Assembly: GCF_016745095.1 (NCBI RefSeq)
Contig: NZ_CP067087.1
Coordinates: 1,724,501 to 1,788,500 of the forward strand
Origin: Croceicoccus sp. YJ47
GTDB taxonomy: Bacteria > Pseudomonadota > Alphaproteobacteria > Sphingomonadales > Sphingomonadaceae
Reading direction: 5' to 3'
DNA length: 64,000 nucleotides
The notes below the pieces were generated by a model. The model saw only the letters and a program-made list of their open reading frames with translations. It searched no databases and was not told the origin of the DNA. Of the stretch, positions 46,504-62,814 are shown in pieces (within the stretch, counting starts at the first letter, position 1; the number at the start of each line of letters is the position of its first letter). The translations under genes and the position numbers were made by a program.

Positions 46504-47952
46504 ATGATGCTCGATTCCACAGTACAGGGCGCCGAGCTTGGCGCGGATGGCGATGCGACCAAGGCGACGGTGTCCAGCCGCAGGCGCGAGCCGATGACGC
46601 CGGCACGTCTGGCGCGCATCCCCTCGCTCGAAAAGCGGCGCCTCCAGTGCTACCTGATGTTCGTGCTCGGCGATATTGCCGCGGTCGTGTTCGGTTACAT
46701 GACGGCGGGGTTCGTCTATCTCGGTTCCTTCGTTTCGCCCGAAGCGATGATGCAGTTGCAACTCATCATCCCGGTTTTCCTCACCATCGGTCTCTATAAC
46801 AGCAGCTATTCCATCAATGCGCTGCGCCGGCCCGCGTTTTCCGTGACGCGCGCGATCGGGGCGCTGCTGGTTGCGGCGGCGATCATTGCGTTCGTGGCCT
46901 TCCTGACCAAATCGGGGGCGCAATTCTCCCGCGCGGTGATGGGGCTTGCGCTCGCCTTCTCGATCGTGGGCATTCTGTTCATGCGTGACCAGATCCGCAT
47001 TCTGGCGACCAGGATCTGCGGGCCGGTGGCCGAGAATTTCCTGATCGTTTACGATGGCGGGCCGACGATCGAGGATGAAAACGCATTCTATTTCGACGCC
47101 GGGCGCTTTGGCCTGCGCCCGGATCTGAGCAATCCGGAGGCGATCGAGCGCATCGGCCGCATGTTCCGCAATATGGACCGCGTGCTGATTTCCTGCGCGC
47201 CGGATCGCTGCGGGGATTGGGCCCTCGCGCTCAAATGCCTTTCGGTGGAGGGCGAAATTCTCGATGACGCGGTGCGCAAGCTCGGCGCGATCGGGGCGTA
47301 TAGCCGCGATCAGCACGGCGTTCTCCATGTCGCCCGGCGCCCGCTCGGCGTGCGATCGCAGACGATGAAGCGCGCCCTCGATCTTGCCATTGCCGGGCCG
47401 GCGGTGGTCCTGCTCTCGCCGCTTCTTCTCATGATCGCGCTTGCCATCTGGATCGAGGATCGGGGGCCGATTTTCTTTCTGCAGAAGCGGATGGGCTGCG
47501 CCAACCAGCTGTTCTCGATCTACAAGTTCCGCTCGATGCGGGTCGAACGCACGGACAATGACGGCAACCGGTCCGCGTCGAAGGACGACGATCGCATCAC
47601 GCGCGTGGGTCGCATCCTGCGCCGGACCTCGCTCGACGAGGTGCCGCAGCTTTTCAACGTGCTCGGCGGGAGCATGAGCATCGTCGGCCCGCGTCCACAC
47701 GCGCTGGGCTCGCAGGCGGGCGAGAAGCTGTTCTGGGAAGTCGATTCGCGTTACTGGCAGCGGCACGCGCTGAAGCCCGGGTTGACCGGGCTGGCGCAGG
47801 TTCGTGGTTTTCGCGGTGCAACGGATACCGAGGGCGATTTGACGAATCGCCTGCAATCCGACCTGCAATATGTCGATGGCTGGTCACTTTGGCGCGATAT
47901 TTCCATTGCCTTCGCGACACTGCGCGTGCTGGTCCACGATCGCGCATTCTGA
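46504..47952 (+). CDS. Polyprenyl-phosphate sugar-1-phosphate transferase starting EPS synthesis
   Basis: WcaJ/WbaP-like initiating enzyme that loads a hexose-1-phosphate onto undecaprenyl phosphate; 482 residues. Four membrane helices lie within residues 50-165, followed by a soluble region, then the catalytic domain from about residue 285, which starts with its own helix (DLAIAGPAVVLLSPLLLMIA). Its signatures are IYKFRSMRVE, RRTSLDEVPQLFNVLGGSMS, IVGPRPHA and KPGLTGLAQVRGFRG. The product heads the locus and sits behind the candidate promoter and leader dyad. The sugar (glucose or galactose) is not fixed. Confidence 0.93.
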   Translation: MMLDSTVQGAELGADGDATKATVSSRRREPMTPARLARIPSLEKRRLQCYLMFVLGDIAAVVFGYMTAGFVYLGSFVSPEAMMQLQLIIPVFLTIGLYNSSYSINALRRPAFSVTRAIGALLVAAAIIAFVAFLTKSGAQFSRAVMGLALAFSIVGILFMRDQIRILATRICGPVAENFLIVYDGGPTIEDENAFYFDAGRFGLRPDLSNPEAIERIGRMFRNMDRVLISCAPDRCGDWALALKCLSVEGEILDDAVRKLGAIGAYSRDQHGVLHVARRPLGVRSQTMKRALDLAIAGPAVVLLSPLLLMIALAIWIEDRGPIFFLQKRMGCANQLFSIYKFRSMRVERTDNDGNRSASKDDDRITRVGRILRRTSLDEVPQLFNVLGGSMSIVGPRPHALGSQAGEKLFWEVDSRYWQRHALKPGLTGLAQVRGFRGATDTEGDLTNRLQSDLQYVDGWSLWRDISIAFATLRVLVHDRAF

Positions 47953-58616: not shown

Positions 58617-59822
58617 TCAGGTCGATATGGCGGGACGCATGGGCGTGCGTCCGGTGGCACGCTGCTTCGCCAGATCGATGCTGTCGGCGATATTGTCGGC
58701 GATCCGGTCGATGGAGAAACGGTCGCGCGCAAGCCGCGCCGAGCCGGTCTGCAGCCGGCGTAGCAGCGCGTCGTCGCACACGATCCGTTCGATCTTATCG
58801 GCAAAATCGCGGTGGTCGCCGGGGGCGATCATGAAACCGGTTTCCCCGTCCACCACCGTTTCATGCGACGCGCCGTCGTTTTCGGAGATCAGCAGCGCAA
58901 GCCCGTGGTTGAGCCCCTCGAAACTGGCGAGCGAGCGGTAATCGACGAGGCTGGGCACGACGAGGATGTCGGCGTCGGCATAGAACGACCCCAGCGCATC
59001 ATAGGATCGCCGCCCGACGAAGGAGACATCGCCGGAGAGGCCAAGCGCCTCGCTCTTGCGCTCCATCGCCTCGCGAAGCGGCCCGTCGCCGACGACCGTC
59101 AGATGCAGCCGCGAACGCGTGTCCGCGTCGAGCAGCGCCAGCGCGTCGAGCAAATGGCCCAATCCCTTGCGCTCATTGATGGAGTTGGCGAACAGGAGGC
59201 GGACCTTGTCCCCGCGCGCGACCGGCGTTTCCCCGGTCAGCGGAGGCCGGGAGGTGAGATAGGGCGAAACGCGCACCTTTTCGGCCTACACGCGCAATTC
59301 CTCGGTGATGTAGCGGAAGCCGTCCTCGTCATTGGTCTGCACGACATGGGCCTGCCGGGCGAACCATCGCTTCGCCCGTAGCACCCATTTGTTCCGGCTC
59401 CCGCCCCGCCGCGACGGATCGGATTCGATGAGCACCACGTGCCCGCAGCCGGGCAGCATCCGTGCCGCGATCGTTCCCAACATCGCCGCGGTCGTGAATT
59501 CGATGGTTACGATCACGCCCGGTCGCGCCTTGAGCAAGCGGGCGAGGAGGGCGGGGGACACGATCCGCACCTCGGTATCGTAGCGTTCGCCGTCGTCGGT
59601 CTGCCGCGCGACCGGAAGGGCGATCATCCGGAATGCAGGGCGCAGATCAAGCCGGTAGGGATTTCGGAACGATTGTTTCGATTCGACGCAGACATACAGC
59701 CTGGCGAAACGTTCGCGCAGCGCACGAAAGATCTCGCCAAAATACATAAGATCGTCGCCATAGCCAAAACCATGAGACACGAAGGCGACGGAAAAGTCGC
59801 GCGAATATGCTTCGCCCGGCAT
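58617..59822 (-). pseudogene. Glycosyltransferase interrupted by an in-frame TAG
   Basis: A GT-B glycosyltransferase of 401 residues if read through. The N-terminal part begins VAFVSHGFGYGDDLMYFGEI and runs to YITEELRV, where TAG (59286-59288, minus strand) stops it after 178 codons. The frame then continues at once with AEKVRVSPYL and a complete donor-binding domain: LLFANSINERKGLGHLLDAL and SLVDYRSLASFEGLNHGLA, with Asp in place of the first Glu of E-x7-E. Both halves have family character, so a single substitution (for example from TGG) split the gene. Start ATG 59822. A hairpin at 59901-59929 separates it from the beta-helix gene. Confidence 0.82.
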
Positions 59823-59980: not shown

Positions 59981-62233
59981 CTAACTCTGGAACCGATCGA
60001 CTTTCATGTTCATCACGTGGGGTCCGCCCGCGAATTGGGTCGCACCGGCGTTGAACAGCACGATTTCCACCATGCCGGGTTCGATGACCTGGGCCGATGC
60101 CATGATCCCGGGACGGGGATCGCGGAACGCCGCCGTCACCAGCGAGCCGGGCACCGCATCCGCAACCGGGGTCGGGACACGTGCCGATCCGCCCGCCGGG
60201 ATCGCGGGAATGGCGAGATCCGCCGCCTTCACGATGGCCATGCGTTCGCCGGTCTGGAACCCGACTTCGTACCATGCATCGGTCCGCGCATTGTACGACA
60301 GGTCGAGGAAGTCGCCCTTGCGCTTCAACACGCGCGGCGCCATCAGCCTCAGCGTGCTGTCCGGCGCGATGCGAAACGAATGCACGCCGGTCACCGAATC
60401 ATGGACCAGCCGCACCACCTGCCCGTCGGCATAGCCGTAGGGACGCACGAACTTCGTCTGAATCGTCACATTCTGCACGGTGGTATCCTGCGTGCGCAGG
60501 GCGATCACCGGCGAGCGAGGGTGCAGGGACGGCCCGTCGTACGTCGTGTCGTGCACGCCGCCGCCGAACATGGCCGGATTCGCGCTTTCGGGCTGCGAAT
60601 TGCGGAACCGTCCGGTGATGAACCGCGGCATGGCGAAGGGGACACCCTCGTTGGTCGGCTGGTTCGCGGCTTCGCAATCGGGCAATTCGACGACGATCGT
60701 ATCCTGATCGAGATAGCCGTAATAGCTGACCGGGCGCATCCATTGCAGGCCCGCATCCTTGGCCGCGCGGCTCTGATGACAGCGCAGACGGACATGGATA
60801 TGCGAGGGCGGTTCGATATAGGTGCCATCGGGAGCGCTGCCGATCTGCTGCGTCAGGCTGTCGGGGCCGATGATATGCAGCGGGGCGGTGATCCGCTGCA
60901 TGTCCTTCCACGCGGCGAATTCGGCCGGATCCTGGTCGATCCACGCGTCGATGGCGAGATCGACATCCTGAAGATTATGCGCAAGATAGCTCGACAGGAT
61001 GACGCTGCTGTCGACAAGGCGGATCGAACCGCGCGTCCACGACGTAAGGTAGATGCTGCGCACGCGTTCGAATTCGCAATTGATGAAGCGGTTCGTCGCG
61101 GCGGTGCCGTCGCTGTTCCGCCATGCGATCCCGGGATTGTAGCGCCCGCCCTTGTCCGGCCAGGCATGCACGGTGAACGTGTCGCAATCGTGGAACACGG
61201 TGTTCTTGTAAACCGCCCGCCCGAATTGCTCCAACCCCGCATGGGCGTTGCCGAATTCGCAATTGCTGACCGAGATGACCCCGCTGCCGCCGGGGTTGAT
61301 CGCGCTCCCGTTCGTTTCGCGGAAGCGGCAGTTTTCGAGGACGGTTTCCTTCGGCCCTTCGCCGCCGCAATAGAACAGCTCGCCCTTGAATCCCTCGATC
61401 TCCACATTGCGCAGGTGGATGCGTTTGACGACCACCTCCCACAGGCCGATGCCCTTTGCCGTCACGTCCCAGCCATCGCCGGTTTCCACGCTGGCGGGAT
61501 AGAGCGGGCGCGCGTCGGTCTTCTTCTGCCCGCCGATGAGCCGGATATTCTCGATCCGCAATTCCTCGATCGACAGGTCGTTGAGGTCGGTGGGAAAGCC
61601 GCCCATATCGCCCAGGATCATGATGCCCCACCCGCGCCAGATCGCGTCGGGCTCCGTCGATGCCGCGTTGGTGCGCACCGTCTGCCAGTTCGTTTCCAGA
61701 TCCTCGCCGTTCGGGCCGTAGAAATAGAGGTCCGACATCTGCTTGCCGCGCAGGGTGACATTGCTGGTGATGACGATGGGCTGCCCGTCGCGGGCGGTGA
61801 TCGTCTCCACCGGCGAATGGCGCACCGGATTGAACAGGGTGTAGCGCCGCTGTGTCAGCACGACATCGGCGATATGCACCGCCGCTGCATAATCGAGCGT
61901 GGCCTGAATCGCAGGCTGGTCGTTGATCTTGCCCGTGCAATCCTTATCGCCGAGCGCGCCGCCCTGTTCCACCGTCACCATTTCGCCCACCAGGCGAAAG
62001 ATCTTCCCATTGGCGGAGCGGAACACGAAACGCGGATGCGCGGCCAGCAATTCGGGCGTGCACAGCGCGTCGCAAAGATAGGAGGCGACGCCCAACCCTT
62101 CACGCGAATGGCCGGTGGTCTCGATCCGGTGCGTATTGTCCGGAATCTCGCGGCTGCTCATCTTCGAAAACAGCGTCGGGTTGCGCAGAAGCGACGACTT
62201 GGCGAGCGCGCGTGCCGTAAAATCCAGGGTCAT
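59981..62233 (-). CDS. Right-handed parallel beta-helix protein, phage tailspike-like
   Basis: A 750-residue protein with no signal peptide or membrane segment. After about 70 residues comes a short head (FVFRSANGKIFRLVGEMVTV) and GALGDKDCTGKINDQPAIQA, the pectate-lyase-type entry to a beta-helix common in phage tailspikes. The long middle part shows helix-rung repeats such as LENCRFRETNGSAINPGGSG and VISVSNCEFGNAHAGLEQFG. The last 150 residues form a beta-rich end domain. It overlaps the upstream gene by four bases. It may be a glycan-binding or glycan-cleaving protein; no lyase or hydrolase residues can be assigned with confidence. Confidence 0.75.
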   Translation of the reverse strand: MTLDFTARALAKSSLLRNPTLFSKMSSREIPDNTHRIETTGHSREGLGVASYLCDALCTPELLAAHPRFVFRSANGKIFRLVGEMVTVEQGGALGDKDCTGKINDQPAIQATLDYAAAVHIADVVLTQRRYTLFNPVRHSPVETITARDGQPIVITSNVTLRGKQMSDLYFYGPNGEDLETNWQTVRTNAASTEPDAIWRGWGIMILGDMGGFPTDLNDLSIEELRIENIRLIGGQKKTDARPLYPASVETGDGWDVTAKGIGLWEVVVKRIHLRNVEIEGFKGELFYCGGEGPKETVLENCRFRETNGSAINPGGSGVISVSNCEFGNAHAGLEQFGRAVYKNTVFHDCDTFTVHAWPDKGGRYNPGIAWRNSDGTAATNRFINCEFERVRSIYLTSWTRGSIRLVDSSVILSSYLAHNLQDVDLAIDAWIDQDPAEFAAWKDMQRITAPLHIIGPDSLTQQIGSAPDGTYIEPPSHIHVRLRCHQSRAAKDAGLQWMRPVSYYGYLDQDTIVVELPDCEAANQPTNEGVPFAMPRFITGRFRNSQPESANPAMFGGGVHDTTYDGPSLHPRSPVIALRTQDTTVQNVTIQTKFVRPYGYADGQVVRLVHDSVTGVHSFRIAPDSTLRLMAPRVLKRKGDFLDLSYNARTDAWYEVGFQTGERMAIVKAADLAIPAIPAGGSARVPTPVADAVPGSLVTAAFRDPRPGIMASAQVIEPGMVEIVLFNAGATQFAGGPHVMNMKVDRFQS

Positions 62234-62691
62234 TGTGCCACCTCGTAGGACAGCGTGCCGCTATCGATCTGAATGAACAGCGCGAGCTGCGCGCCCGACA
62301 CCGGCTCCTGCCAGAACGGTTCGCAGGCATTGGCGGTATACACGCCCCAGCTGCTCCCGCCGGCGGTGAGATTGTGGAACGTCGCGCCGCCGTCGCCCGA
62401 CCGGCGGATCGTCACGGACCCCGTCCACTCGCCCGACAGGGTCAGCACCACCGGGCGGTCGGGGGCCGGCTCGAACGATGCGCTCTGCATCGATTGCGCC
62501 GTCTCGCCGCGCAGTGCCGGTGGCGCGGGGACGGAGCCGGTCGGACTGGGCGCAAGCCCGCCGCCCGCGATCACCACCGGAAGCGGGTTTTGCGGATTGA
62601 TCAGCGAGATATACCCCTCGGTATCGCTGAAGCCGATGGCCTGGGCACCGGCATAGCTGGCAGGCATCTTGATTTTTACGGGATCGTCCAT
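62230..62691 (-). CDS. Small phage-structural-like beta-sandwich protein
   Basis: A 153-residue protein with no signal peptide. The second half (VVLTLSGEWTGSVTIRRSGD, then GGATFHNLTAGGSSWGVYTA, and SGTLSYEVAQ at the end) matches a beta-sandwich pattern I know from phage tail and capsid-decoration proteins: 'GSW..tV.lqRS.DGG.tw...GTvtYrls'. This is recognition by eye. GAAGAAGG lies seven bases before the ATG at 62691. It is followed by the beta-helix gene with an ATGA overlap, so the two are made together. No other phage gene is near. Confidence 0.65.
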   Translation of the reverse strand: MDDPVKIKMPASYAGAQAIGFSDTEGYISLINPQNPLPVVIAGGGLAPSPTGSVPAPPALRGETAQSMQSASFEPAPDRPVVLTLSGEWTGSVTIRRSGDGGATFHNLTAGGSSWGVYTANACEPFWQEPVSGAQLALFIQIDSGTLSYEVAQ

Positions 62692-62814
62692 GGTTCATCC
62701 TTCTTCGGGTCGTGAACCAATGCGGTTATTTACTTGCGACAATGTAGGAAAATAAAACTTTGCCTGTGGCCGCGAATTCAGGCAGTCAGTGCGCGCTTGA
62801 GAACAGGGGGCCTC

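Follow-up and report, generated by a model that had tools for sequence, protein, structure and literature searches.

The head spike of RcGTA, the gene transfer agent (GTA) of Rhodobacter capsulatus, is composed of a pentameric jelly-roll base (Rcc01079) and a single fibre (Rcc01080), residues 2 to 10 of which are docked in the base (PMC7296036). The corresponding genes, ghsA and ghsB, lie next to each other and adjoin capsule genes, with which they are co-regulated (PMC10218006). Head spike, tail fibres and lysis genes belong to the late genes that are triggered together via GafA and CtrA (PMC9638019), and DUF6456 is the annotation of gafA (PMC9765227, PMC9638019). In the literature searched, R. 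capsulatus is the only organism for which GTA head spikes are described.

A second GTA-linked protein, the RcGTA tailspike TspA (rcc02623), is GTA-regulated, is encoded away from the head-tail cluster and degrades biofilm polysaccharide. It is reported in nearly all GTA-encoding Rhodobacterales and is lacking in other Alphaproteobacteria. Exopolysaccharide (EPS) loci also encode polysaccharide lyases or depolymerases, such as the beta-helix GelR/SpsR of sphingan loci. Tailspike beta-helices, in turn, are usually trimers.

The two genes described here, a small base gene (P0002) followed by a long fibre gene (P0001) within an EPS locus, resemble the known head spike in kind. The literature searched describes neither exchangeable, enzyme-like tips joined to a constant tag nor a wide occurrence within EPS loci. 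The pair is probably the head-spike cassette of the bacterium's own RcGTA-like gene transfer agent.

The gene pair and its EPS locus

The window, the whole 64,000-nucleotide stretch of Croceicoccus sp. YJ47 DNA that was analysed, contains two overlapping reading frames (Table 1), in which the original prediction saw a small protein of the phage tail or decoration type and a tailspike-like partner placed between glycosyltransferase genes. Both frames were borne out, with coding-like codon usage and a 4-nt overlap, and the flanking genes were confirmed as glycosyltransferase genes of a Wzx/Wzy/Wza/Wzc EPS locus. This locus extends from position 46504 to about 7.8 kb past the end of the window and is of the Wzy type. 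Homology and sequence reading identified a sugar-phosphate transferase, Wza, Wzc, Wzy and several glycosyltransferases, together with Wzx, GDP-fucose synthase and GDP-mannose dehydratase in the part beyond the window. The glycosyltransferase gene directly downstream of the fibre gene (58617 to 59822, minus strand) has a GT4-like frame that is continuous except for a single in-frame TGA near 59286.

Table 1. Positions of the pair and its associated sequence elements in the window
Feature	Position	Strand	Description
Base gene P0002	62230..62691	-	153 aa; supported by ORF, profile of relatives and predicted structure
Fibre gene P0001	59981..62233	-	750 aa; predicted tailspike-type right-handed beta-helix
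ATGA stop/start overlap of base and fibre	62230..62233	-	4 nt
N-terminal fibre tag MTLDFTARALAKS	62195..62233	-	Conserved, proposed base-docking; found in 43/46 partners
Promoter box TTTTATTTTCCTACA	62743..62757	-	Upstream of base gene; TTTCCTACA motif
Palindrome AACC-N5-GGTT	62715..62727		Between box and base gene

As originally proposed, no signal peptide is visible on base or fibre when their N-termini are judged by inspection. Integrase, capsid, terminase and lysis genes were not seen near the pair, and neither neighbouring phage genes nor decayed frames were found around it in the window and its flanks.

Predicted structures of base and fibre

The base is predicted to fold into a jelly-roll at approximately residues 60 to 152, modelled with pLDDT above 90 nearly throughout, which is consistent with the beta-sandwich proposed earlier; the N-terminus (residues ~1 to 55) is poorly predicted and appears floppy. 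In the PDB, no structural match of the base falls below 0.001; these neighbours are jelly-rolls of a generic sort and include a turret protein of a tailed virus as well as capsid or decoration proteins of phages. Its neighbours among viral structures are uncharacterised, small phage proteins (best 9e-5). Pfam and PHROGs retrieved no usable family for the base, and a profile of 48 bases gave no match at E<=10 against PDB chains, the RcGTA capsid entries included. A DNA pattern of the RcGTA peptide IALGLGLGL returned 65 chance-like matches and no base homologue from GTDB contigs. Single-sequence pattern searches with P0001 or P0002 in IMG/VR and GTDB contigs gave no match, nor did tblastn of the pair against phage and plasmid records. 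By prediction, P0002 has the make-up of an RcGTA-type spike base, namely, a small jelly-roll with an N-terminus that would be free to bind the capsid. The small protein is likely a spike base and not a generic decoration protein.

The fibre was matched by the Pfam Beta_helix profile at 2.9e-5, slightly short of the family cut-off, and its AlphaFold model (pLDDT 86.8) has phage capsule-depolymerase tailspikes as top PDB structural matches (best 1.7e-8). Profile and model together point to the right-handed beta-helix of phage tailspikes and depolymerases, in agreement with the tailspike-like fold read from the sequence. The same fold is found in Fri1 gp49, Klebsiella K2-2 TSP and HK620 TSP. In contrast to these phage tailspike depolymerases, to which identity is about 10 percent, the fibre carries at its N terminus a putative tag for a separate base, is not phage-borne and is a putative depolymerase. 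In PHROGs, P0001 alone showed a weak tailspike match (0.044), and its relatives showed clearer ones (best 4.3e-8). Two relatives of P0001 lie elsewhere on the same chromosome, both inside prophages (L006 and L007), of which one contains an integrase, a head protein and an endolysin and the other tail sheath and baseplate genes. Shared ancestry of the fibre with phage tailspikes follows from the profile of the EPS-locus fibre family, which matches these two prophage proteins at about 1e-102 and 1e-104.

Distribution of the pair and exchange of its tips

The P0002 profile retrieved matches at E<=1e-4 in 61 of the 401 genomes of the host's bacterial family, spread over 24 of 96 genera; 49 of these genomes matched strongly. 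About 50 neighbourhoods of the base gene were compared, and most of them are EPS loci, with homologues of Fcl, GMD, Wzx, Wzy or Wzc. The arrangement of base and then fibre, adjacent to each other beside EPS genes, is that of the R. capsulatus spike genes beside their capsule genes. Without EPS genes around it, the pair is found in genus g89 (L096, L102 and L111, at the usual chromosomal site holA to lptA), and it stands alone in L101.

Among 46 partner genes, 42 overlap the base gene by 4 nt. A tag of approximately 12 residues, of the form MSxxDxxARGLA or MSALALPALGLA, is the sole part that the partners have in common: 35 carry it as DxxA(R/L)(G/A) and 8 as ALALPALGL, and in two further partners (L042 and L115), it directly follows a signal peptide. 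Eight tags are leucine-rich, like the IALGLGLGL of RcGTA, and the AlphaFold model of P0001 presents the tag as a helix, not as an extended star. The C-termini are otherwise different, comprising 23 beta-helix relatives of P0001, 9 GDSL/SGNH hydrolases (called via Pfam, in part with scores short of the curated cut-off) and 14 of other kinds. The partner, a predicted beta-helix here as foreseen, is interchangeable and not always of this fold.

This distribution bears on the proposal that the genes are a remnant of phage genes, carried in by horizontal exchange of the EPS locus. The homology of the fibre to the tailspikes of both prophages and its predicted tailspike-like fold would fit such an origin, but the open frames, the overlap, the tag and the promoter are conserved across many genera, no other phage genes lie nearby, and neither base nor fibre has a relative in 50,697 phage records. 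Decay was rejected as an explanation, as intact pairs recur across many genera and keep a conserved promoter of their own, and a remnant of any kind is highly improbable.

Promoter elements shared with GTA genes

Of 47 loci, 39 have the TTTCCTACA motif ahead of the base gene, against none of 682 neighbouring genes; AACC-N5-GGTT preceded the base gene in 23 of 47 loci versus 3 of the 682 neighbours. Both comparisons are uncorrected for relatedness. In this genome, box and palindrome occur together upstream of the GTA holin (GTA_holin_3TM, PF11351, 4.5e-29) and of a gafA-type DUF6456 gene, whose identity here rests on intact homologues in relatives. The box occurs without the palindrome at the endolysin (phage lysozyme) and is also present at a TerS-like gene, and AACC-N5-GG is located upstream of the GTA head-tail cluster, both in this genome and in the majority of the relatives that were examined. 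The box was dropped as a GTA-specific element since housekeeping genes carry it too, and therefore only the combination of box, palindrome and gene identity is telling. The putative link of the pair to the GTA late and lysis genes is this sharing of box and palindrome, as read from the sequence.

Most genomes of the family (47 genomes; e.g., L278, L279 and L282) show a strong over-representation of the element ATTTTCCTACA relative to its reversed control. The element is also found upstream of housekeeping genes such as ftsZ and therefore looks like a general promoter element. Scattered small-terminase-like helix-turn-helix genes (L239, L274, L275 and L253) carry the same box.

The promoter also bears on whether the pair is an ordinary exported enzyme of the EPS locus that trims or edits the cell's own polymer while it is being made. 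Like the EPS-locus lyases (e.g., GelR/SpsR), the fibre is a predicted beta-helix protein encoded in an EPS locus, and relatives with signal peptides do exist: divergent base/partner pairs in L115, L116 and L042 have Sec-type signal peptides, placed on both proteins in L115 and on the partner only in L042, and the fibre of L044 has a Tat-like one. The present pair differs from such lyases in having no visible signal peptide, a separate base gene and a putative GTA-type promoter of its own, which is unlike that of all 682 neighbouring genes. With the pair occurring in other genomes away from EPS genes, this explanation is quite unlikely. The domesticated module first suggested is upheld as a phage-derived, two-gene module of receptor-binding or depolymerase type in an EPS locus, whereas trimming of the cell's own polymer in normal life is probably not its role, given the GTA-linked promoter.

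GTA genes in this genome and in other carriers

An RcGTA-like head-tail cluster is located at approximately C1:957940-971606, about 0.8 Mb from the pair on the same chromosome, so that the lack of phage-type genes noted originally holds near the pair but not for the chromosome. The cluster encodes terminase, portal, protease, major capsid protein (1.2e-80 versus Rcc01687), a DUF2460 fusion and an Rcc01698_C domain. The gafA-type DUF6456 gene (L231, G000:C1 about 502359, minus strand) is frameshifted in this assembly and intact in G010 and G011; because of this frameshift, the strain may not make particles.

A head-tail cluster is present in 36 of the 49 carriers. Three GTA-marker searches all came back empty for the other 13, most of which have retained an intact pair. 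The frequency of DUF2460 in carriers (32/49) does not exceed that in other genomes (221/352), and across genomes, no association of the pair with GTA markers was found, which lowers confidence in the GTA reading. GTA_TIM (PF13547) was of no use for marking GTAs in the host's bacterial family. In G010, only a megatron remnant is left; the endolysin and the DUF6456 gene are kept and the partner is truncated, which is what joint decay of particle and spike would produce.

The carriers without GTA markers could be accounted for by a lysis-coupled, particle-free complex that is co-expressed with holin and endolysin, freed by lysis, and loosens or edits the shared matrix without a GTA, the GTA spike being one use of a more general module. 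G004 would suit this explanation, as it lacks the cluster but retains pair, holin and endolysin, each with the box, and so would the SGNH hydrolases found among the tips besides beta-helices. Without a particle, however, there would be no obvious purpose for a docking tag or for a dedicated base whose N-terminus is long and floppy, and the predicted anatomy matches the RcGTA spike. A particle-free complex is therefore unlikely, if less so than an exported enzyme.

Comparison with the RcGTA head spike

A head-spike role is likely because the promoter elements tie the pair to the holin, DUF6456/gafA, the endolysin and the head-tail cluster, and gene order, conservation and the swapping of modules also support it. 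Anatomy, position and regulation of the pair would be a close parallel to the RcGTA spike, with a predicted jelly-roll base and a fibre bearing a short hydrophobic N-terminal peptide for docking (cf. MSALALPALGLA). The R. capsulatus spike is expressed with the GTA lysis genes, and the pair here shares promoter elements with such genes. The base jelly-roll would be situated on a capsid vertex, anchored through its floppy N-terminus, and the fibre would dock on the base via its tag. The beta-helix may bind, and probably cleaves, the polymer of the surrounding EPS locus. Base and fibre would be expressed with the GTA lysis genes in particle-making cells and freed by lysis; neither would need a signal peptide, since release is by lysis. 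Particles with the spike would bind or degrade the EPS of recipient kin, and because the spike genes are kept inside the EPS locus, coat type and spike specificity would move together, directing DNA to kin.

Several features differ from the RcGTA spike or count against this reading. The RcGTA fibre has 325 aa, whereas here a 750-aa beta-helix is predicted and relatives have SGNH and other tips. The base has no detectable similarity to any PDB chain and is likened to Rcc01079 by its described anatomy. The tag is worded differently in most genomes and modelled as a helix, and one fibre per base in RcGTA is at odds with the usual trimers of tailspike beta-helices. The box at housekeeping genes, the signal peptide on the partner in two genomes and the 13 carriers without GTA markers also weigh against a GTA spike. 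TspA is likewise a GTA-linked tailspike outside the head-tail cluster, polysaccharide-degrading in its case, but it is a single gene beside lysS with its own N-terminal beta-sandwich, whereas the pair here has a separate base and a tag.

It is tentatively proposed, with rather less confidence than the head-spike role itself, that the GTA head spikes of this family are built as modular cassettes, in which a constant base and tag carry a swappable depolymerase or esterase tip within an EPS locus, and that polymer and receptor-binding protein are co-inherited, steering exchange to cells with the same coat. If so, swappable spikes borne by the EPS loci of many genera would explain how the GTAs of other Alphaproteobacteria find recipients, would allow partners in DNA exchange to be traced from genomes, and would make kin-directed transfer testable in laboratory strains. 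They would also constitute a large collection of beta-helix and esterase-like proteins with tags, each paired with a defined EPS locus.

Tagged fibres in other EPS loci

Tagged fibres with the same promoter box and ATGA overlap are present in three other EPS loci (L045, L046 and L047), where a short ORF of 45 to 49 aa occupies the position expected for the base gene. The GTA capsid protein of one of these genomes, G009, is 99% identical to that of the window genome, but the EPS locus and the tip of G009 differ. Beside the EPS locus in G002 and G009, a short ORF beginning METLKNNGYEAPKMEKIGSFEELTLG (L046 10949-11098 and L047 10975-11124) resembles a ribosomal-peptide precursor.
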